Shown here piece after piece: positions 320 to 9,362 of a stretch of DNA of 20,397 nt (the stretch's first letter is position 1; each line of letters opens with the position of its first letter). Under the pieces are notes generated by a model. It did no database searches. It saw nothing but the letters and a program-made list of their open reading frames with translations, and had not been told where the DNA came from. The stretch is from Candidatus Aerophobetes bacterium Ae_b3b (GTDB taxonomy: Bacteria > Aerophobota > Aerophobia > Aerophobales > AE-B3A): positions 1 through 20,397 of the forward strand of contig NJBP01000042.1 in NCBI GenBank assembly GCA_005223085.1. Direction: 5' to 3'. The position numbers and the translations under genes are program-made.

Positions 320-2278
320 TCAATCCAAAAGTAGGGTGAAGATGAAGTTAGCCCATTGTCCTTCTTCAGACTCAGCCCATATTTTCCCCCCATGCTTTTG
401 GATAATCTCTTTGGTGACAAAAAGACCCAATCCACTTCCCTTCTCTTTTCTGAATTTCTCCCCGCTGAGGCGGACAAATTTGGTAAAAAGCTGATCGCTC
501 TTATCCTTGGGAAATCCCTCACCTTTGTTCCATACATTTATCTTCCACTCATTTTCTTCCCTCAGAACACCTATCTTAATTTTACCTTTTTCTTTCCCAT
601 ATTTTATAGCGTTGCTCAAAAGATTTTCCATTACTATCTTTAAAAGATCGGGGTCTGCCCTGACTTTAAAAGAATCAGATACATCTACTTCCAGGAGTAT
701 ACCCCCTCCTTCAAGTTGACCTTCAAATTCATCTAAAACTGGCTCCAAAATATCTTTTTTAAATTCGACCTCCTGTTTGTTAACTTTCAACTCTTCTTTT
801 TCTATTCGACTCAAATCAAAGTAATTTTTTATCATATCGCTAAGTCTTTCGGAATTCCGCAACAGCACATCCACCATCGTTTTCTGTCCTTCGTTCAGTG
901 TTCCTACAACTCCCTGGCTTAGATTATAAGCACTACCCAATACAAGACCCAGTCTATTCTTAATTTCATGAGTTACAAAAGTAAGTATTTCCATGTAGTG
1001 CTGATTTATCTGCCTTAAATCATCGTTTGCTTTTTCCAGGTCTGTCTCCCTTTTATATAAAACAGCAGCCATCTGATTAAAATTTCGTATGAGCTCCTGA
1101 ATTTCCAGATATGGCAATTTCTGAATGTAAGGATATTTCTTCTCTTTTTCTAGAATATCCTGGATTTCCCCTCGTGCAATACGATTGGTTGCTTTCACCA
1201 GCTTCTTTATTGGTTTGGAAAGTCCTCGGGACAAAAGATGAGAAAGAATTAGGACAGCGACAATACCTCCAAATATTATGGCTAGAAAACGGAGGAAGAT
1301 TCCGTTTCTGATATCAACATATTTATCCTCCAGAACACCTGCATACAACATCCCTATTGTCTCGTTGGTGGGGGAATATATCGGTTCGTAGGCTGATATG
1401 TACCAACTATTGACTACAAAAGCTCTATCCAGCCATGTTTTTCCATTCTCCAAGACCTTTTCGTAAACTTCTCTTGAAACACGTGTCCCAATAGCTCGAG
1501 AGCCATCCTTTTCTTTGACATTGGTGGTTATTCGTACATCCCACTGGAAAATAGTAACGGTTCCGAATGGCTTTCCTTTGTATTCCTTCTCCTCAAAGAC
1601 CATATCTCTTACGTAATCAACTAACCGGTAGTTTCTATTTAATAAAATTCCTCCATATAGAATACCTATTATTTCTTCATTTCCTGCCCACACAGGCACA
1701 GCAGCCATGAGAACCATCCCTGACGTTTCTGCTTTTTCGGAACGAGGTCTGGCTCCAGGAGTAGGAGTAAATTGAATATATGCTTGCTGAAATAGATCCT
1801 CTCCCTCCATTTTCAGAGTCTGAGGAGGCATTATTACAATACCTGATGCACTTTTCCCCCGGAAGGCTTTTGACACAAGGGAATTTGAGAGAGAAAAGTC
1901 CCCGCTGTAGTGTGGAAAACGAGTCCGGAGTATAACTTTTCCTTTTCTATCACATAAGGTGAGAAAATCAAAGCCAGAATCAACTCTTTTTTTCTCAAGC
2001 CAGGATCTTATATCCGAGGAAATGGGTTGAGATTTTTCGAGAGGATCTATTAACCGCTGTTTTTCTGCGAGAAGATCCAAAGTAATTACTAATTTTTCTA
2101 TCTCTTTATCCAAGAAATTGTGAGCTACTCGCAAATCAATGGCAACTCTGCTCTTTGTTTCGTTAAGGACGACATGAAAGATATGGAGACGAGATACCAG
2201 TATGACAAGAACCCCTATCAAGAGAACAACCAGCGTGAAATACCAGAAAATCTTCCGCTGAAACGATAATTTAATCAT
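320..2278 (-). CDS. Membrane sensor histidine kinase with periplasmic Cache-type domain, HAMP, HisKA and HATPase
   Basis: 652 residues. A membrane helix at about 10-30 and a second at about 328-350 enclose a roughly 300-residue extracytoplasmic sensor. Its tandem pattern (IIGILYGGILLNRNY near 203-217, ETIGMLYAGVLEDKY near 306-320) is typical of double Cache domains. HAMP follows (SKPIKKLVKATNRIARGE), then a coiled coil. The H box THEIKNR holds the phospho-acceptor His437, with Arg442 where most kinases have Pro. The N box ENLLSNAIKYG contains Asn556. The G1 box reads NKGEG rather than the usual DxGxG form. The G2 box is GSGLGL at 614-619, with the F-box phenylalanine in LFTKF. The gene lies 10 nt after the response regulator, its probable partner, and both follow rex on the same strand. 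The ligand is unknown. The divergent G1 box could lower ATPase activity, but all other motifs are intact. Confidence 0.93.
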   Translation of the reverse strand: MIKLSFQRKIFWYFTLVVLLIGVLVILVSRLHIFHVVLNETKSRVAIDLRVAHNFLDKEIEKLVITLDLLAEKQRLIDPLEKSQPISSDIRSWLEKKRVDSGFDFLTLCDRKGKVILRTRFPHYSGDFSLSNSLVSKAFRGKSASGIVIMPPQTLKMEGEDLFQQAYIQFTPTPGARPRSEKAETSGMVLMAAVPVWAGNEEIIGILYGGILLNRNYRLVDYVRDMVFEEKEYKGKPFGTVTIFQWDVRITTNVKEKDGSRAIGTRVSREVYEKVLENGKTWLDRAFVVNSWYISAYEPIYSPTNETIGMLYAGVLEDKYVDIRNGIFLRFLAIIFGGIVAVLILSHLLSRGLSKPIKKLVKATNRIARGEIQDILEKEKKYPYIQKLPYLEIQELIRNFNQMAAVLYKRETDLEKANDDLRQINQHYMEILTFVTHEIKNRLGLVLGSAYNLSQGVVGTLNEGQKTMVDVLLRNSERLSDMIKNYFDLSRIEKEELKVNKQEVEFKKDILEPVLDEFEGQLEGGGILLEVDVSDSFKVRADPDLLKIVMENLLSNAIKYGKEKGKIKIGVLREENEWKINVWNKGEGFPKDKSDQLFTKFVRLSGEKFRKEKGSGLGLFVTKEIIQKHGGKIWAESEEGQWANFIFTLLLD

Positions 2279-2288
2279 TAATATTAGC

Positions 2289-2681
2289 TCATTTTCTTCT
2301 TTGAAGCACTTCCGCCACTTTTTCTATCAGTTTATCTGGGGGCACAGGTTTTTCCAGGAACTCAGTTACGGGTAACCACTCCTTGTCGGGTTCTATTTTC
2401 TCCTGAATATCCATACTTTCTCTTATGGCTGTTAGCATTATTATGGGTGTGTTCCGGATTTCTTCGTATTTTCTGAGCTCTCGGGAAACATTAAACCCCC
2501 CTGTCTTTCTTTTCAGCATCACATCCAGTATTATAACATCTGGCTTTTCCTTAAGAGCTTTCTCGAGAGCCTCTTTTTCATCGTAAGCGGCCACCACTTT
2601 ATATCCCTTATTCTCCAAAGCCACCTTGTTGACCTTTACGAAATCAACCTCATCATCAACTAAAAGTACTTTTTTCTCCAT
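2289..2681 (-). CDS. Single-domain response regulator (CheY-like receiver)
   Basis: 130 residues, consisting of a receiver domain only. The acidic pocket is Asp9-Asp10-Glu11 in LLVDDE, the phospho-acceptor is Asp53 in VIILDVM, the switch Thr84 is in IIMLTA and the conserved Lys111-Pro112 is in FLEKP. The loop after Asp53 is a little long (LKRKTGGFN). No DNA-binding or enzymatic output domain follows, so it probably acts by protein contact or as a phospho-relay carrier. The ATG is preceded by GAGG about seven bases upstream. The gene is first of a two-gene unit with the histidine kinase (10-nt gap), and rex ends 96 nt upstream on the same strand. Partnership with the kinase is inferred from position. 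Confidence 0.93.
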   Translation of the reverse strand: MEKKVLLVDDEVDFVKVNKVALENKGYKVVAAYDEKEALEKALKEKPDVIILDVMLKRKTGGFNVSRELRKYEEIRNTPIIMLTAIRESMDIQEKIEPDKEWLPVTEFLEKPVPPDKLIEKVAEVLQRRK

Positions 2682-2709
2682 TGTAACCTCTTTTTTGATA
2701 TTTAGAAGA

Positions 2710-2726
2710 TTGTGACCTATTCACTT
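2710..2726. promoter_or_regulatory. Imperfect Rex-like palindrome upstream of the response regulator
   Basis: TTGTGACCTATTCACTT lies 29 nt before the response-regulator start. It has the TTGTGA and TTCAC half-sites of a Rex operator, but the spacing is one base shorter than the consensus TTGTGAANNNNTTCACAA. No convincing promoter hexamers surround it. It is listed as a weak candidate only. Confidence 0.22.
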
Positions 2727-2777
2727 CATTGGCCAAGGTACAACCTTCTTGAGTTTGCCACTAATCACCAGGAATGC

Positions 2778-3176
2778 TTAATTTCCTCTAGATAAATGAA
2801 AACGCTGATCGTTAACAATATAACAGGTTATAACTTCAAGTTGAGAGGTAAAATCAACATTTTTTAACTTCACGTAAGAGGGAACAACGACTCCAGCGGA
2901 AGAGAAATTGAAAATGCCTTTTATCCCACTTATGACAAGAAGATCTGCTGACTCTTGGGCCGCTTCAGCTGGAGCAGTAATCATTCCTATATGAATTTTC
3001 TGCTTCCTTATTATTTTGGGCATCTGGTAAGGATGATATATCTTTACACCGGCTACTGTCTTACCAATCTTGTTCGGATTTACATCAAATCCGACTTGGA
3101 TATGGAACCTACTTTTCTCAAAAGCAAGATTGTTTAATAGAACCCTCCCTAATTTCCCAACACCCACCAGTGCTAT
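2778..3176 (-). repeat. Direct repeat copy 1: DNA for the Rex Rossmann domain, inside rex
   Basis: This 399-nt stretch aligns without gaps to 4168-4566 at an offset of 1390. By hand count there are about 32 mismatches (about 92% identity). Positions 2913-3024 are completely identical to 4303-4414 (112 nt). Similarity fades at the stop codon on one side and at the start of the Rossmann domain on the other. It encodes 132 residues in each copy, 108 of them identical. Confidence 0.93.
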
Positions 3177-3425
3177 AGGCCATACTCTATCGAGACCCAA
3201 TGCCTTTGAGATCCCCTCTCGCAACTTCCCTACTCTGTACCCCTTACTCGGAGTTCCAAATTGCCCAAAATAAGAGAGGTCTTTTCTTACCCTCGCCCCC
3301 GATGTCCCTAAGAACTCAGCCAGCTGCTCAGAAGATATCCTTGTCTCTTCCCTCATTTCCTTGAGATATCTAAGATAAAGAGAAAGGCGGATAGCTGCGT
3401 TTTCTGACGCTTTTTCTTTAGACAT
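2778..3425 (-). CDS. rex: Redox-sensing transcriptional repressor Rex
   Basis: 215 residues, the usual Rex length. Residues 1-80 are the winged-helix DNA-binding domain, with the family hallmark RVRKDLSYFGQFGTPSKGY at 46-63. Residues 83-215 form the Rossmann domain, with the NAD(H)-binding loop GVGKLG at 88-93 and acidic Asp114 in VGFDVNPNKIG. The C-terminal segment DFTSQLEVITCYIV is the swapped helix that joins Rex dimers. Rex proteins bind TTGTGAANNNNTTCACAA operators when NADH/NAD+ is low and let go when NADH rises. GAGG precedes the ATG by about nine bases. Two operator-like sites lie upstream of the channel operon at 5872 and 5958. The DNA encoding residues 84-215 is duplicated at 4168-4566, where it forms the tail of the FNT channel. 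The upstream leader contains repeat arms and a promoter-like motif resembling that of the channel operon. Confidence 0.96.
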   Translation of the reverse strand: MSKEKASENAAIRLSLYLRYLKEMREETRISSEQLAEFLGTSGARVRKDLSYFGQFGTPSKGYRVGKLREGISKALGLDRVWPIALVGVGKLGRVLLNNLAFEKSRFHIQVGFDVNPNKIGKTVAGVKIYHPYQMPKIIRKQKIHIGMITAPAEAAQESADLLVISGIKGIFNFSSAGVVVPSYVKLKNVDFTSQLEVITCYIVNDQRFHLSRGN

Positions 3426-3440
3426 AGCCTAAACCTCGAT

Positions 3441-3510
3441 CAAGATACTCGAGGGGGGAAATATCCCCCCTCGACGGCTCGAGCAAGCCGAGCCTGCTCC
3501 CCTCTTTTTT
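3441..3510 (-). repeat. Left arm of an inverted GC-rich repeat element
   Basis: Read on the minus strand this arm starts with AAAAAAGAGGGGAGCAGGCTC and continues through GCTCGAGCCG, TCGAGGGGGGATATTTCCCC and CTCGAGTATCTTG. The same order of blocks occurs on the plus strand at 3823-3947. It contains a perfect 9-bp stem, CGAGGGGGG with CCCCCCTCG, at 3450-3473, with a six-base loop, and the smaller GGCTCG/CGAGCC stem next to it. It lies 16 nt upstream of the rex start codon, so the hairpin would be in the rex leader RNA. Confidence 0.7.
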
Positions 3511-3544
3511 CTGATATTTGGTCTACCGAGGGTTACTTGATAAT

Positions 3545-3573
3545 AATTCAGAGAGATTATTGAAATTCCTATA
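3545..3573 (-). promoter_or_regulatory. Promoter-like motif upstream of rex resembling the FNT operon start region
   Basis: On the minus strand a possible -10 (TATAGG, 3568-3573) is followed directly by AATTTCAATAATCTCTC and then TGAATT. The FNT operon promoter has TATAAT followed by AATTGTGAATAATCTCTC and AATT at 5956-5984. The AATAATCTCTC core is identical and the spacing from the TATA box is within one base. No good -35 is present here and the TTGTGA half-site is degenerate, so binding by Rex is only a suggestion. Confidence 0.35.
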
Positions 3574-3822
3574 CTTCAAAATTATTCAGTGGGAGGCACG
3601 CTGAAAAAGCTGCTTCCTTCTGCTTCTGTGCTTTCCTCAGCCATGCCACGCCTGCATCCCCAATCCTTAAGCACAAGTCAGATGCTTCAATTTGAAATAA
3701 ATGTGAGCTTGTTGCTAAACCATATCTAAAATTACTATGGGAAAAATACCGCTGTCCCGGAGAATAGTTAAAAGTATCGGAATTTCAAAAATTTCTTTGG
3801 ATTGCTACCAAATGAGCTACCG

Positions 3823-3947
3823 AAAAAAGGGGGGAGCAGGCTCTCTCATGCCCTGAGCGAAGCGAGAGTCGGCTTTGCCGATCGGGCCGTTGAGGGGGGC
3901 ATTCCGAAGGAATCGGCGAAGCCCTATTTTCCCCCTTAAATATCTTG
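3823..3947 (+). repeat. Right arm of the inverted GC-rich repeat element
   Basis: This arm begins AAAAAAGGGGGGAGCAGGCTC, passes GGGCCGTTGAGGGGGGC and ends CTATTTTCCCCCTTAAATATCTTG. It matches the left arm block by block in opposite orientation. It is longer because of extra hairpin segments: CTCTC with GAGAG around CATGCCCTGAGCGAAGC, CGGC-TTT-GCCG, and ATTCC-GAA-GGAAT. Such multi-hairpin, non-coding arms are typical of REP/MITE-like sequences. No transposase remains between the arms. Confidence 0.65.
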
Positions 3948-4167
3948 CGATGGTCTATGCCTGGGTAGTACACGGTGCACCTCTCCTTTTTCAATGTAGT
4001 TTACCAAATGTCGAGAGAAACACAACTTATGCCAGACTATCTTTAAAGAGTCCCAAGAAATAAAAAGAACCTCCTCAGCCTGGCAATAATCAGAATATTA
4101 TATACTTCGTCGAGGAGTAAGGCGGGTTAATATCCTTTGAGGACACTAAGTTTTAATTCTTCAATAC

Positions 4168-4566
4168 TTAATTTTCTGTAGATAACTGAAAATGTCGATT
4201 GTTAACAATATAATTAGGTATAATTTCAAGTTGAGAGGTAAAATCAACATTTTTTAACTTCACGTAAGAGGGAACAATGACTCTGGTACAAGAAAAATTG
4301 AGAATGCCTTTTATCCCACTTATGACAAGAAGATCTGCTGACTCTTGGGCCGCTTCAGCTGGAGCAGTAATCATTCCTATATGAATTTTCTGCTTCCTTA
4401 TTATTTTGGGCATCCGGTAAGGATGATACACCTTTACACCGGCTATTCTCCTACCAATCTTGTTCGGATTTACATCAAATCCGATTTGGATATGGAACCC
4501 ATTTTTCTCAAAAGTAAGATTGTTTAACAGAACCCTCCCTGATTTCCCAACACCCACCAGTGCTAT
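4168..4566 (-). repeat. Direct repeat copy 2: Rex Rossmann-domain DNA fused to the FNT gene
   Basis: This is the counterpart of 2778-3176. The frame is preserved from the shared IALVGVGK start to the stop, with no insertion, deletion or early stop. The 24 amino-acid differences from about 32 base changes indicate many non-synonymous changes. They cluster outside the 112-nt identical block and in the last ten residues. Confidence 0.93.
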
Positions 4567-5364
4567 AGACAATGGCCATCTACGCTTTTTTTTACCATAT
4601 AGATAATAGTAAAGCATACCAACAAAGAAGGCTCCACCAACAATATTTCCCAGGGTTACCGGCAACAAATTGTTGAACAAAAACATCCCCCAGGTAATCT
4701 TGTTTGTAATAAACATACCGGCAGGAATAAAAAACATATTGGCAACACTGTGTTCAAATCCTAAGGTAACGAAAGCCATGATAGGAAATTGAATTGCAAA
4801 GACCTTGCCTATTATATTATCACTACCTAATGCTAACCAAATAGCTAAGCAGACCAACCAGTTACATCCTACTCCACGCAGAAATGCCTGAGTAAAGCTG
4901 AGTTTGCATTTTGCCTGAGCAATCTCAGCAATATAGCTCATCCAGGGATCTTTAAGTAGCAACCCGGTGCCAATACCTAGAAAATAGGCAACGAAGATTC
5001 CTCCCATAAAATTACCCATATAGGAGCCAGTCCAGTTTCTCACCAAGCCTTTCCAGCTACCTCTATTATTTAGACAAGCAACTGTAGGCAACATGCAATT
5101 CCCAGTAAAAAGTTCTGCGCCTCCAATAACCACGAGCATCAGACCAACTGGGAAGACAGCACCAAAGACAAGCTTCTGTAAACCTGGCAATTCCCTTGGC
5201 CACGGATCTCCAGCAGCAGCAATCACCGCTAAAAACCCCCCAAAAGCAACGTAGGCACCTGCGAGAAACCCCAAAATCAGCACCCTGTTCCAAGTCATTT
5301 TTGTTTTCTTCTCGCCAACAGCACATACTGTTTCCATAATAGCAGGAGGCACTTTGCACGGCAT
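4168..5364 (-). CDS. FNT-family channel fused to a C-terminal Rex NAD(H)-binding domain
   Basis: 398 residues, against about 260-290 for ordinary FNT channels. Residues 25-256 are a complete formate/nitrite/hydrosulfide-type channel: TM1 LGFLAGAYVAFGGFLAV, the signature GAELFTGN at 82-89, SYMGNFMGG at 114-122, CNWLVC at 167-172, the central pore His205 in FEHSVANM, and NLLPVTLGNIVGG at 232-244. A basic linker, GKKKRRWPLS, leads straight into residues 267-398, which are about 82% identical to Rex 84-215. The dinucleotide loop GVGKSG (271-276) has Ser for Leu but all glycines. The winged helix is absent, so this is not a repressor. FNT C-termini face the cytoplasm, so the domain could see NAD(H). 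AAGGAGAT precedes the ATG by eight bases. The gene lies 38 nt after the 120-residue gene, behind a promoter with Rex-type operators. Substrate (formate, nitrite, hydrosulfide or other) cannot be told. Redox gating or Rex sequestration is inference. Confidence 0.92.
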   Translation of the reverse strand: MPCKVPPAIMETVCAVGEKKTKMTWNRVLILGFLAGAYVAFGGFLAVIAAAGDPWPRELPGLQKLVFGAVFPVGLMLVVIGGAELFTGNCMLPTVACLNNRGSWKGLVRNWTGSYMGNFMGGIFVAYFLGIGTGLLLKDPWMSYIAEIAQAKCKLSFTQAFLRGVGCNWLVCLAIWLALGSDNIIGKVFAIQFPIMAFVTLGFEHSVANMFFIPAGMFITNKITWGMFLFNNLLPVTLGNIVGGAFFVGMLYYYLYGKKKRRWPLSIALVGVGKSGRVLLNNLTFEKNGFHIQIGFDVNPNKIGRRIAGVKVYHPYRMPKIIRKQKIHIGMITAPAEAAQESADLLVISGIKGILNFSCTRVIVPSYVKLKNVDFTSQLEIIPNYIVNNRHFQLSTEN

Positions 5365-5402: not shown

Positions 5403-5765
5403 TTACCATTTTTCTTGCTGGAGACGACAACTTAGCCAGGTTTTTTGTTTTTCGCTCAATTCCCCAACAATTTCCTCGATAAATCTGATATCTCCGCTGG
5501 CTAAAGCTGCATATTCTTCAGTAGTTAAATCAAACTTATTGAGGACTTGAGCTGGATCATCTGCTAACTGAGCTAGGATTCTATTATCTTCCGCTGCCAA
5601 TTCTAATACTTTTAGGATTTCTGCCTTGTGCCTGCGTCTACCTTCTAGCCAGAACCAGTGTCGATCTTCCGCTGTTAGTCTTTTAAGCATCCCAGAGAAA
5701 GCCTTCTCTAGATCTTCTAGCACCTCAACGACCTGCAAAGCTTCCGTTTCACTACCTTTGCTCAT
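5403..5765 (-). CDS. Small predicted helical protein preceding the FNT-Rex channel
   Basis: 120 residues with no signal peptide or membrane helix. Residues 1-60 are highly charged and predicted helical (EVLEDLEKAFSGMLKRLTAEDRHWFWLEGRRRHK). Residues 61-110 carry the pattern LADDPAQVLNKFDLTTEEYAALASGD, which recalls the small all-helical LigA-like or Franean1_4349-like domains (a DP turn, then LTxEExAALxSGD). I do not recognise the family with confidence and assign no function. A good Shine-Dalgarno (GAGGTGAC) lies seven bases before the ATG. As first gene of the operon, 38 nt from the channel gene, it is probably made together with it. It could be a soluble partner or an unrelated small protein. 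The start looks sound because a 15-bp palindrome and the ribosome site lie immediately upstream. Confidence 0.75.
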   Translation of the reverse strand: MSKGSETEALQVVEVLEDLEKAFSGMLKRLTAEDRHWFWLEGRRRHKAEILKVLELAAEDNRILAQLADDPAQVLNKFDLTTEEYAALASGDIRFIEEIVGELSEKQKTWLSCRLQQEKW

Positions 5766-5783
5766 TTTTTTGTCACCTCGTTT

Positions 5784-5798
5784 TTATGAATTTCATAA
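5784..5798. promoter_or_regulatory. Perfect 15-bp palindrome TTATGAATTTCATAA before the 120-residue gene
   Basis: Two 7-bp arms, TTATGAA and TTCATAA, flank a single base, a few bases upstream of the GAGGTGAC ribosome site on the minus strand. The arms resemble Rex half-sites (TTGTGAA/TTCACAA) with one change each, but the spacing is too short for a normal Rex operator. It may be a different operator or a leader hairpin close to the ribosome site. Confidence 0.4.
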
Positions 5799-5871
5799 GC
5801 CAATACACTAGGGCCAATTGGTGAATTTGTTTGGCAACGTCAGTCAATAAAAAGTGCTGGATTTGTACGCA

Positions 5872-5889
5872 TTGTGAGTTATTTCACAT
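5872..5889. promoter_or_regulatory. Rex-type operator in the leader of the FNT operon
   Basis: TTGTGAGTTATTTCACAT matches 12 of the 14 defined positions of the Rex consensus TTGTGAANNNNTTCACAA. It lies about 85 nt downstream of the predicted transcription start of the FNT operon, where a bound repressor could block elongation or form a loop with the site at 5958. The core TGTGA-N6-TCACA would also suit a CRP/FNR-family protein, but rex is the only such regulator in the window. Confidence 0.65.
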
Positions 5890-5957
5890 ATTACTAACTT
5901 GGCCCATAATCGTTATTTATCTAATCAAAGGGCGTTTACGTATTCGACACTCTCCAA

Positions 5958-5975
5958 TTGAGAGATTATTCACAA
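5958..5975. promoter_or_regulatory. Rex-type operator overlapping the FNT operon transcription start
   Basis: On the minus strand TTGTGAATAATCTCTCAA matches 12 of 14 consensus positions, with one perfect half-site. It begins 3 nt downstream of the TATAAT box and so covers the expected start of transcription, the standard place for a repressor. A CTCTC/GAGAG inverted repeat (5950-5964) overlaps its far end. Confidence 0.62.
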
Positions 5976-5978
5976 TTC

Positions 5979-6006
5979 ATTATAATAAAAAAATCTCTCC
6001 TGTCAA
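5979..6006 (-). promoter_or_regulatory. Strong leftward sigma-70 promoter for the FNT operon
   Basis: On the minus strand the -35 is TTGACA (6001-6006) and the -10 is TATAAT (5979-5984). Both are perfect consensus hexamers, with a 16-base spacer rich in T. A promoter this strong next to repressor sites fits a gene kept off and then fully induced. Confidence 0.8.
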
Positions 6007-6102
6007 GAGGACACCTCCAGTTTTCCGAAAAACCCTTGTCTTTTTGCTGTGGGGCGAGGTGTTGGGCATATCTCAGCCGCGTGATCCCGGGTCTATAGAG
6101 AA

Positions 6103-6152
6103 AAGTATCTAGGAGATTTATACGCGTATCGAGGGACTTTCCCGAGATACTT
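6103..6152 (+). promoter_or_regulatory. Conserved palindromic element upstream of the acyl-CoA dehydrogenase promoter
   Basis: The outer inverted repeat AAGTATCT (6103-6110) / AGATACTT (6145-6152) encloses AGATTTATACGCGTAT (6114-6129), whose last ten bases form a perfect palindrome. GAGGGACTTTCCCGAGAT follows. The same AGATTTATACGCGTAT and CCCGAGAT blocks occur at 10641-10677, and in both places the -35 box starts 24-25 nt after the palindrome. This fits an activator or repressor operator. Confidence 0.6.
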
Positions 6153-6153
6153 C

Positions 6154-6181
6154 TTGACAACTCGCCCACCACAGGTATATT
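6154..6181 (+). promoter_or_regulatory. Promoter of the acyl-CoA dehydrogenase/ETF operon
   Basis: TTGACA (6154-6159) and TATATT (6176-6181) are separated by 16 bases. The GTG start of the first gene is 53 nt further on. The conserved palindromic element abuts the -35. Confidence 0.7.
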
Positions 6182-6234
6182 AACCATTAGTCAACTTGAC
6201 AGGCTACATTAGTGAAAGATGGGAGGAAAAATAA

Positions 6235-7374
6235 GTGGATTTTAGTCTAAGCGATGATCAGAAGATGATTCTGGAGTTGGTAGAGGAAGTTAGCCAGGCT
6301 GAATTTGCTCTTCGTGCTGATGAGATATCTAAAAAAGGAGAGTTTCCTGGTGAAAACATAAAGAAATTGGCCGAATTAGACCTATTTGGGGTTACCATTC
6401 CCAAGGAATACGGCGGACTGGGTATGGATTATCTCACCTGGACTCTTGTTTCAGAGAAGATTTCTAAGGCCTGCGCTACTACCGGCTTGATTTTCGGAGC
6501 TAACCTACTCTGTACCTATCCTCTCATGGTATTTGGTACAGAAGATCAAAAGAGGAAATTTCTTCCCCCCCTGGCTAGAGGAGAGGCCCTGGGTGCTTTT
6601 GCTTTGACAGAACCAGAGGCAGGTTCAGATGCGGGAAATGTTCAGACCATCGCCAAAAAAGGAGAGGATCATTATACTCTCAATGGTAGTAAAATTTTCA
6701 TTACTAACGGGGAAGTTGCTCATACATATATTGTTATTACCACCATGGATCGGAGCCTGGGACCACGGGGGCTGACTGCTTTCATCTTGGAAAAAGGAAC
6801 ATCTGGTTTTAGCTTCGGACAGCACTTTGAAAAGATGGGACTGAGCGCTTTGCCCAACGTGGAGTTGATTTTCCATGATTGCAGAGTTCCCAAAGAGAAC
6901 CTTTTGTACAAAGAGAAAAGGGGCTTTCGGGTAGCAATGCAGACCTTCGCTGCGGGAAGAATTGGAGTGGGGATTGGAGCTTTGGGAGTAGCAGAAGCTG
7001 CCTTTGAGGAAGCTAAAAAATATTCTAAGCAGCGGGTGCAGTTCGGAAGATCCATCTCCAGTTTTCAGGCTATTCAGCATACCTTAGCTGATATGGCTAC
7101 CGAGATAGAGGGAGCTAAGTATCTTCTTTATCGAGCTGCCTGGCTTCTTGATCAAGGAAAACCTTTTGAAAAACTCGCTTCTATGGGCAAACTATACGCC
7201 TCGGAGGTAGCCATGAAGGTGACTACCAAAGCAGTCCAGATCCTGGGAGGTTATGGTTATACTAAGGATTATCCGGTTGAGCGCTATATGCGGGAAGCCA
7301 AACTTTTTGAGATCATTGAGGGAACCTCAGAGATCCAAAGGGGTGTAATCGCCAATAAAATTCTTAAGGAATGA
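6235..7374 (+). CDS. Acyl-CoA dehydrogenase (short-chain/Bcd-like)
   Basis: 379 residues, the family's normal length. This flavoenzyme makes the alpha-beta double bond in acyl-CoA (or reduces enoyl-CoA) and exchanges electrons with ETF. Visible are the N-terminal helical domain, the FAD signature AFALTEPEAGSDAGNVQT (121-138), the strand segment with FITNGE, the C-terminal signature FGRSISSFQAIQHTLADMA and the dimer motif QILGGYGYTKDYPVERYMREAK. The catalytic base is Glu362 in IIEGTSEIQ, as in short- and medium-chain enzymes. I chose the GTG at 6235 because GGGAGG lies eight bases upstream and the protein then starts with the usual MDFSLSDDQK. etfB begins 3 nt after its stop, so the three proteins are probably made together and form an acyl-CoA dehydrogenase-ETF system. 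Chain length cannot be deduced, and no thiolase, hydratase or hydroxyacyl-CoA dehydrogenase is nearby. Confidence 0.95.
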   Translation: MDFSLSDDQKMILELVEEVSQAEFALRADEISKKGEFPGENIKKLAELDLFGVTIPKEYGGLGMDYLTWTLVSEKISKACATTGLIFGANLLCTYPLMVFGTEDQKRKFLPPLARGEALGAFALTEPEAGSDAGNVQTIAKKGEDHYTLNGSKIFITNGEVAHTYIVITTMDRSLGPRGLTAFILEKGTSGFSFGQHFEKMGLSALPNVELIFHDCRVPKENLLYKEKRGFRVAMQTFAAGRIGVGIGALGVAEAAFEEAKKYSKQRVQFGRSISSFQAIQHTLADMATEIEGAKYLLYRAAWLLDQGKPFEKLASMGKLYASEVAMKVTTKAVQILGGYGYTKDYPVERYMREAKLFEIIEGTSEIQRGVIANKILKE

Positions 7375-7377
7375 AAT

Positions 7378-8169
7378 ATGAACATCATTGTTTGTATTAA
7401 GCAGGTTCCCGACACGGAACAGTTGCAAAAAGTAAAGGTTGATCCCCAGACCAATACTCTCGTTAGAGAAGGTGTTCCTGGCATTATAAATCCATTCGAC
7501 GAAAATGCCATTGAGGAGGCCTTGAGACTGAAGGAGAAAAAAGGGGGGAAGGTTAATGTTCTTTCTATGGGTCCTTCGCAGGCAGCAGAATCTCTAAGGA
7601 AAGCTCTGGCTATGGGGGTGGACGAAGCGGTGCTTTTGTCAGATAGATTGTTTGCCGGCTCCGATACTCTAGCTACTTCTTATACTTTGGCCATGGCCAT
7701 TAAAAGAATAGGACCATTTGACTTGATACTTCTGGGTAAACAGGCCATTGATGGAGATACCGCTCAGGTTGGACCGGGACTGGCTGAGTGGCTCAATTTA
7801 CCTCAGATAACTTACGCTCGGAAGATAGAGGTTAATGAAGATAAAATTAGAGTAGAGCGTGTTTTAGAAGACGTATTTGAAGTGGTTGAGTCGCCGCTTC
7901 CTGTGGTGGTTACAGTAACCAAGGATATAAATGAACCTCGCTATCCTTCCCTGAGAGGACTTATCAGAGCCAAGGCCGAAAAGATATCCACCTGGACTGC
8001 TGAAGATTTACCTTTAGATAAGAGGAGAATTGGATTAGAAGGATCTCCCACACAAGTAATTAAAGTTTTTATCCCCAAGCCTCCGAGGAAAGGTGATATC
8101 CTTTCTGGAGAAATTTCTCAAGTGGTGGATAAGTTGATTTTGGAAATAGAGAAAAGAAGTATAATTTAA
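7378..8169 (+). CDS. etfB: Electron transfer flavoprotein beta subunit
   Basis: 263 residues, typical of EtfB/FixA. The N-terminus MNIIVCIKQVPDTEQLQKVKVDP, the INPFDENAIEEALRLKE block and LLGKQAIDGDTAQVGPGLAEWL are family landmarks for the nucleotide-binding fold. In ordinary ETF this subunit holds AMP, and in bifurcating ETFs it holds the FAD that splits the electron pair. The start is 3 nt after the dehydrogenase stop, with AAGGA supplied by the end of the previous gene. The stop TAA overlaps the etfA ATG by one base, indicating translational coupling. Confidence 0.95.
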   Translation: MNIIVCIKQVPDTEQLQKVKVDPQTNTLVREGVPGIINPFDENAIEEALRLKEKKGGKVNVLSMGPSQAAESLRKALAMGVDEAVLLSDRLFAGSDTLATSYTLAMAIKRIGPFDLILLGKQAIDGDTAQVGPGLAEWLNLPQITYARKIEVNEDKIRVERVLEDVFEVVESPLPVVVTVTKDINEPRYPSLRGLIRAKAEKISTWTAEDLPLDKRRIGLEGSPTQVIKVFIPKPPRKGDILSGEISQVVDKLILEIEKRSII

Positions 8170-9362
8170 TGAGAAAGATCAAGATAATAGTTGAAAAATG
8201 TAATGGCTGTGAGGAATGTTTATCCAGTTGTCTTTTCTCCGCTATCAAGATCGAGAATAAAAGGGTGAGGATACTGGACAATTGCAATCTCTGCGGAGCC
8301 TGCATAGATGCTTGCCCCTTTGAGGCTATCGTACTGGAGAAAGAAAAGACCCTGGTTGATCTATCTTCTTACCGGGGAGTATGGATATTTGTCGAACAAC
8401 GCAAGGGTGAGATTATGCCGGTAACTTATGAGCTTCTGGGGATGGGTAGGACTCTGGCCAATGATCTGGGGGAGGAACTTTCTGGGGTTCTTTTAGGCAG
8501 CCACATGAAAGGAAAAGCAGAAGAGCTTTTGAATTACGATTTAGAGAAAATCTATTTGATAGAGGATCCTCTTCTTGAGTCTTATCGGACGCATCTTTAT
8601 ACTCAGGTCATAGTCGATTTAGTGAACCACAAAAAACCCGAGATTATTTTAATGGGAGCTACTAGTCTCGGTCGGGATCTTGCACCTCGGGTGGCAACTC
8701 GCCTCCAAACTGGCTTAACTGCTGATTGTACAGGGCTTGAGATAGATAAAAAGGAGAGGAACTTAATTCAAACCAGACCTGCTTTGGGAGGAAATATTAT
8801 GGCTAGGATTATTTCACCTTATCATCGTCCCCAGATGGCTACAGTTAGACCCAAGGTGATGAAAAGAGCCAGGCCTGGCCATAGTAAAAAGGCAGAGATT
8901 ATAGAGATTGAACCCAAGGTCAGTCAAGACAATGAGGTAGTAAAAATTATCAGTCTTATCAGGGAGGAAAAGGAGGCAGTTGACCTGCAGGGGGCAGAGA
9001 TCATTGTCTCCGGTGGTCGGGGACTGGGAAAACCAGAGAATTTTTCCCTTATTAGAAAATTAGCCGATCTTTTGGGAGGAGCTGTGGGGGCCTCCCGGGC
9101 GGTAGTAGATGCTGACTGGATTCAGCCCTATCATCAGGTAGGACAGACGGGAAAAACTGTTCAACCTAAACTCTATATAGCCTGTGGTATCTCCGGGGCT
9201 ATTCAGCATCAGGTGGGAATGAGAACCTCAGAGGTAATTGTTGCTATCAACAAAGATCCTGAGGCTCCTATTTTCAACATTGCTACTTACGGCATTGTCG
9301 AGGATCTTCATAAATTTTTGCCAGTATTGATAGAGAAACTGGAAAAAAGAGGAAAGTCCTGA
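8169..9362 (+). CDS. etfA: Electron transfer flavoprotein alpha subunit with N-terminal 2[4Fe-4S] ferredoxin domain
   Basis: 397 residues, longer than plain EtfA (about 320) because residues 1-55 are a bacterial ferredoxin domain. The cluster ligands are Cys11, 14, 17, 21 and Cys39, 42, 45, 49, two complete CxxCxxCxxxC sets. The second ends in the usual CP and the first in CL. The FAD domain follows, with VSGGRGLGKPENF, the YHQVGQTGKTVQPKLYIACG stretch (FAD-binding) and the C-terminal VAINKDPEAPIFNIATYGIVEDL signature. The same architecture occurs in the clostridial ETFs of lactate dehydrogenase and caffeyl-CoA reductase, where it serves electron bifurcation with ferredoxin and NADH. A bifurcating role here is inferred from that architecture and the adjacent acyl-CoA dehydrogenase. 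Confidence 0.95.
   Translation: MRKIKIIVEKCNGCEECLSSCLFSAIKIENKRVRILDNCNLCGACIDACPFEAIVLEKEKTLVDLSSYRGVWIFVEQRKGEIMPVTYELLGMGRTLANDLGEELSGVLLGSHMKGKAEELLNYDLEKIYLIEDPLLESYRTHLYTQVIVDLVNHKKPEIILMGATSLGRDLAPRVATRLQTGLTADCTGLEIDKKERNLIQTRPALGGNIMARIISPYHRPQMATVRPKVMKRARPGHSKKAEIIEIEPKVSQDNEVVKIISLIREEKEAVDLQGAEIIVSGGRGLGKPENFSLIRKLADLLGGAVGASRAVVDADWIQPYHQVGQTGKTVQPKLYIACGISGAIQHQVGMRTSEVIVAINKDPEAPIFNIATYGIVEDLHKFLPVLIEKLEKRGKS

Follow-up and report, generated by a model that had tools for sequence, protein, structure and literature searches.

The channel gene, rex and their surroundings

The window, by which we mean the whole stretch of 20,397 nucleotides analysed, is an entire contig of a 2.04-Mb, 86-contig MAG of Candidatus Aerophobetes bacterium Ae_b3b. 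Its minus strand carries, in this order, a 120-aa ORF, a 398-aa fusion ORF, 742 nt free of genes, rex, a response regulator and a cache histidine kinase. Neither tRNA nor Rfam elements were found in the window. The features of the locus are as follows.

320-2681, minus strand: response regulator (2289-2681) and cache histidine kinase (320-2278), downstream of rex in a conserved rex-RR-HK cassette
2778-3425, minus strand: rex, complete, the sister copy of the tail (PF02629 and PF06971; NF003995 at 216.8 bits, cut-off 126)
3430-4166: intergenic region from the fusion gene to rex, where a dispersed repeat is present as two inverted copies, at about 3441-3585 and 3772-3950
4168-4566, minus strand: Rex C-terminal NAD(H)-binding (Rossmann) domain, residues 267-398 and the stop codon (identity to Rex, PF02629, 1xcb/2dt5, pLDDT)
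4567-4596, minus strand: linker GKKKRRWPLS, residues 257-266 (translation; pLDDT below 50 at 259-263)
4600-5364, minus strand: FNT channel part, residues 1-255 (PF01226, TIGR00790, match to LciA 9v2a)
5403-5765, minus strand: 120-aa ORF upstream of the channel gene, 38 nt from the FNT ORF and in the same probable operon
5872-5889: Rex-operator-like palindrome 2, one mismatch, in the leader of the channel operon
5958-5975: Rex-operator-like palindrome 1, one mismatch, directly downstream of the -10 element of the channel operon promoter
5979-6006, minus strand: sigma-70-type promoter TTGACA-16-TATAAT directed toward the channel operon (12 of 12 positions; a consensus match only)

The fusion ORF (4168-5364, minus strand) is a single open frame with two Pfam domains, Form_Nir_trans (PF01226) at residues 9-254 (E 5.5e-89) and CoA_binding (PF02629) at residues 266-358 (E 6.9e-19). 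The earlier note had read it as a complete formate/nitrite-type (FNT) channel followed, after about ten linker residues, by a Rex-type Rossmann domain, and it was right about the architecture and about the identity of both halves, as seen from Pfam and from the alignment to Rex. The three channel motifs it named were all found, i.e. GAELFTGN, FEHSVANM with the pore histidine H205, and NLLPVTLGN, and the linker has exactly ten residues. Ordinary FNT proteins mostly end about 4-15 residues past the corresponding point, and thus the fusion point is the natural end of the channel.

The channel half scores 298 bits with PF01226 (cut-off 34.6) and 275 bits with TIGR00790 (cut-off 232). Its closest solved structure is the bicarbonate channel LciA (9v2a, E 2e-58; Foldseek TM(target) 0.94). 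With the FocA (formate) equivalog TIGR04060 it reaches 198 bits, below the cut-off of 290, and it falls short of the NirC equivalog cut-off as well. It shares with the FNT family (FocA, NirC, HSC, LciA) the whole channel domain, the conserved histidine and the same end point, but the fusion has about 130 extra cytoplasmic residues and lies under both equivalog cut-offs.

In an AlphaFold2 monomer model of the fusion built with 25 homologues (mean pLDDT 84), the sixth transmembrane helix extends to residue 260 and the first Rossmann strand begins at 265, the linker being very short. The pLDDT is about 92-98 across most of residues 265-375, the Rossmann core, and about 40 at residues 379-398, which correspond to the dimerising end in Rex. 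For Rex modelled likewise, the pLDDT is 67-70 at residues 191-210 and 39 in the final five. Since monomer models disfavour a swapped helix, the low pLDDT at the end of the tail is weak evidence. According to these models, the cytoplasmic end of every channel subunit would bear a folded Rossmann domain of the Rex type.

The repeat in the intergenic region is MITE-like, about 145-175 bp long, with 46 matches in its own genome, and it also occurs in six related Aerophobetes genomes. The rex-RR-HK cassette (320-3425 in the window) is conserved and repeated in Aerophobetes (loci L033, L034 and L040-L045), an unusual partnership of Rex with a two-component system. The 120-aa ORF has a weak match, below the cut-off, to an Os1348-type NHLP-clan domain of RiPP precursors, and its first 61 residues have a 59 % relative beside a rex cassette in another genome (G002, L045).

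The Rex-type tail and its sister copy

The window holds two copies of the last 400 nt of rex (its 3' end), and the second is fused in frame behind a complete FNT channel gene. Residues 267-398 of the fusion correspond to residues 84-215 of Rex and are identical to them at 108 of 132 positions (82 %, 24 amino acid differences), just as the earlier note had counted, and the DNA is 91.9 % identical. The homology begins at Rex codon 83/84 and ends within about 10 nt past the stop codon; it is also seen as a 300-nt direct repeat at 91 %, far above chance. Since the copies differ at 32 of 396 nt, both are real, and the tail does not stem from a collapsed repeat. The tail scores 68.9 bits with PF02629, and the Rex structures 1xcb/2dt5 match fusion residues 260-388.

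Compared to the C-terminal domain of the redox-sensing repressor Rex (1xcb, 2dt5, 3keo), the tail is tethered to a channel, its C-terminal helix is altered, and the N-terminal winged-helix DNA-binding domain (PF06971), present in the rex gene, is absent. The tail itself would be unable to bind DNA. The motif GVGKSG, correctly reported for the tail in the earlier note, reads GVGKLG in Rex itself; the leucine of GxGxLG, found in 86 of 90 Rex sequences and invariant in 15 Rex relatives, is a serine in the tail. The GxGxxG motif and the FD acidic residue of an NAD-type fold are kept, as is VDF at the dimer/cofactor pocket. In the C-terminal helix the tail has the change C201N (Rex numbering) at a position which is Y or F in 67 of the 90 Rex sequences, and the last 17 residues hold 7 of the 17 amino acid changes of the fused branch.

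The dS between tail and rex is 0.077 overall and 0.126 in the part shared with the orthologue in a related genome (G004). The linked kinase and response-regulator genes give dS values of 0.11 and 0.18 against the same genome, and so the duplication is about as old as that split; the order of tail, rex and the G004 orthologue could not be separated in trees. In a codon model the fused branch had an omega of 2.2-3.0 against a background of 0.15. This was not different from 1 (delta lnL 0.8) but differed from the background (2 delta lnL about 20), and the result was the same with three topologies and when only the structured part was used. Hence there is no dN/dS signature of purifying selection on the tail, dN/dS being about 1 or more. 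The standalone rex branch has an elevated dN/dS too, and the raised value is thus not unique to the fused copy.

The tail contains no stop codon, frameshift or indel; as a tail would be free of stops by chance with P 0.59, the absence of a stop is uninformative. Judged by a 90-sequence Rex profile, the substitutions on the fused branch are more acceptable than random mutations (P 0.0008-0.012, depending on the settings), and tail and rex share a 112-nt stretch without a difference (P 0.00025 under an even spread), which gene conversion or constraint on the core would explain. Profile compatibility and the identical stretch together argue against mere drift of the tail, although gene conversion would account for the stretch as well. 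These tests rest on one sequence pair and were picked post hoc, and the evidence from them is only moderate. The earlier note had regarded the lack of any relative with the fusion, together with clear decay of the domain, as telling against its reading. The former is what we find, but clear decay is not seen, the tail having neither stop nor indel and carrying Rex-compatible substitutions.

About 16 of the 22 changes inferred for the fused branch in 4168-4566 are A/G transitions on the coding strand, a count of small numbers. A diversity-generating origin of the copy differences was considered and dropped, as the changes run both from G to A and from A to G. Elsewhere in the group, at L034 (2393-2665, G002:C5), a broken rex fragment with stop codons adjoins an intact rex cassette, which indicates that pieces of rex have been duplicated and lost in Aerophobetes.

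Operator-like sites and relatives

The consensus of the Rex operator is TTGTGAAN4TTCACAA (PMC8376106, PMC2883068). When TTGTGA-N6-TCACAA was searched for with at most one mismatch in its 12 fixed bases, the two palindromes listed above were the only sites in the window, compared to 0.07 expected. Both candidate operators lie between the channel operon and a divergent operon (region 5765-9362) encoding an acyl-CoA dehydrogenase, EtfB, and EtfA with an N-terminal ferredoxin-like domain, by resemblance of the bifurcating type. Because both sites face this acyl-CoA dehydrogenase/Etf operon, it is likely a Rex target too. From the sites, the channel operon looks like a member of the Rex regulon. 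Rex would then repress it at a low NADH/NAD+ ratio, and expression would occur at high NADH.

Only 3 of the 17 genomes of the order have an FNT gene. The other two Aerophobetes FNT proteins are 51-52 % identical and have no tail, and by eye from the sequence their neighbours resemble formate dehydrogenase/NuoE/NuoF and MobA genes. The earlier note had proposed a search for relatives with a C-terminal Rex domain on long FNT proteins. No other such protein was found in the 17 Aerophobetes genomes or in about 60 FNT-bearing genomes among 386 sampled, and scanning the genome contigs with the full protein gave no second fusion. In the sample of 386, 61 genomes had FNT matches, and all but a few of the long frames were opened. 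Among the examined loci, the longer FNT frames carry other extensions. L163 and L164, with about 75 extra C-terminal residues, were rejected as fusions, as the extension is hydrophobic and probably forms two added membrane helices; L023 was rejected because its extension is N-terminal.

Two loci with profile matches over both halves, L061 and L063, likewise proved to contain separate rex and FNT genes. In these loci, which come from Margulisiibacteriota and Saganbacteria, rex, FNT and a MobA-like gene stand in a row (L061 5746-7346, L063 5752-7366). A perfect TTGTGA-N6-TCACAA site directly precedes FNT, and in L063 genes resembling FdhD and formate dehydrogenase come next. Side-by-side rex and FNT genes are thus seen in more than one phylum, and as far as our searches reach the fusion is private to this lineage. 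With predicted operators in the promoter region and rex beside FNT in other phyla, the link between Rex and the channel is stronger than was known to the earlier note.

Two loci cut by contig ends gave no support for a fusion: in L005 (G005:C116) the frame reads into the Rex linker EISKVLGLDRVWP, and in G004:C61 the order is rex-RR-HK. The latter contig starts (L033, 1-192) within the section of rex where the two copies of the window do not differ, as if a second copy had broken the assembly there.

What the tail may do

The best explanation, to which we give a probability of about one half, is that the fusion is genuine, young and specific to this lineage, and that a working, probably ordinary channel bears a folded tail which is probably tolerated. 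It is followed, in this order, by titration of Rex, gating by NADH and an artefact. The fusion probably arose by partial duplication of the neighbouring rex or, alternatively, by duplication of rex and subsequent deletion of the DNA-binding half of the second copy together with the FNT stop. The protein would most likely still be an ordinary anion channel, and the tail a tolerated, folded extra whose role, if any, would be no more than weak or newly evolving. Binding of NAD(H) near the pore or contact with Rex would be the natural candidates for such a role.

That the junction joins unrelated sequence, through an error of assembly or a mixed population, is very improbable. The case for the fusion rests on one assembled MAG contig, a repeat is involved, and the related contig G004:C61 breaks within the same repeat. 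However, the two copies and also their flanks differ, the FNT gene has no rex-like sequence of its own to act as an overlap, and direct repeats collapse in assembly rather than create a second, diverged copy.

Whether the tail makes this a redox-gated or Rex-capturing anion channel, in which NADH/NAD+ acts on the pore via five tails or the channel draws Rex away from DNA and thereby keeps itself expressed, is doubtful when both possibilities are taken together. Rex dimerises via swapped C-terminal helices (PMC8376106), and the tail, so similar to Rex and with VDF in place, might pair with free Rex in this way and hold it at the membrane as a dominant-negative fragment. As Rex would repress the operon, which has the operator-like sites, such titration would give positive feedback once NADH rises. 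We nevertheless regard it as unlikely, since the changes of the fused branch gather in the last 17 residues, including C201N, since the model confidence at the dimerising end is about 40 compared to about 70 in Rex, and since the fusion is kept in no relative. Direct opening or closing of the pentamer by NAD(H) bound to its five tails seems still less probable. The C-terminus of FNT channels is cytoplasmic (PMC5572259), the linker after the sixth helix is very short, the NAD-type motifs are kept, and RCK channels provide a precedent (PMC3510474); against this stand the serine in place of the GxGxLG leucine, the mismatch between dimer and pentamer symmetry, and the lack of conservation of the fusion.

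Partial parallels exist among known proteins. RCK/KTN-gated potassium channels such as GsuK (PMC3510474) also have an NAD-type Rossmann domain that faces the cytoplasm, but channel and Rossmann domain are of other families, RCK rings are built of dimers whereas FNT channels are pentamers, and gating by the tail is only putative. In Ks-Amt5, a fusion of an ammonium transporter and a histidine kinase (PMC5764959), a channel-type membrane domain and a C-terminal signalling module likewise share one chain; its output is a kinase, whereas the FNT-Rex tail consists of a sensor domain only, with no output domain. The earlier note knew of no described channel with the present architecture, and a literature search indeed found no FNT-Rex fusion.

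If the tail works, this would be the first FNT channel known to us that has a redox sensor built in. It would also be a rare capture of the sensing half of a transcription factor by a gene under its probable control. Even as a passenger, the tail provides a clean example of how a regulator and a member of its likely regulon have very recently come to share a domain, with the sister copy still adjacent.
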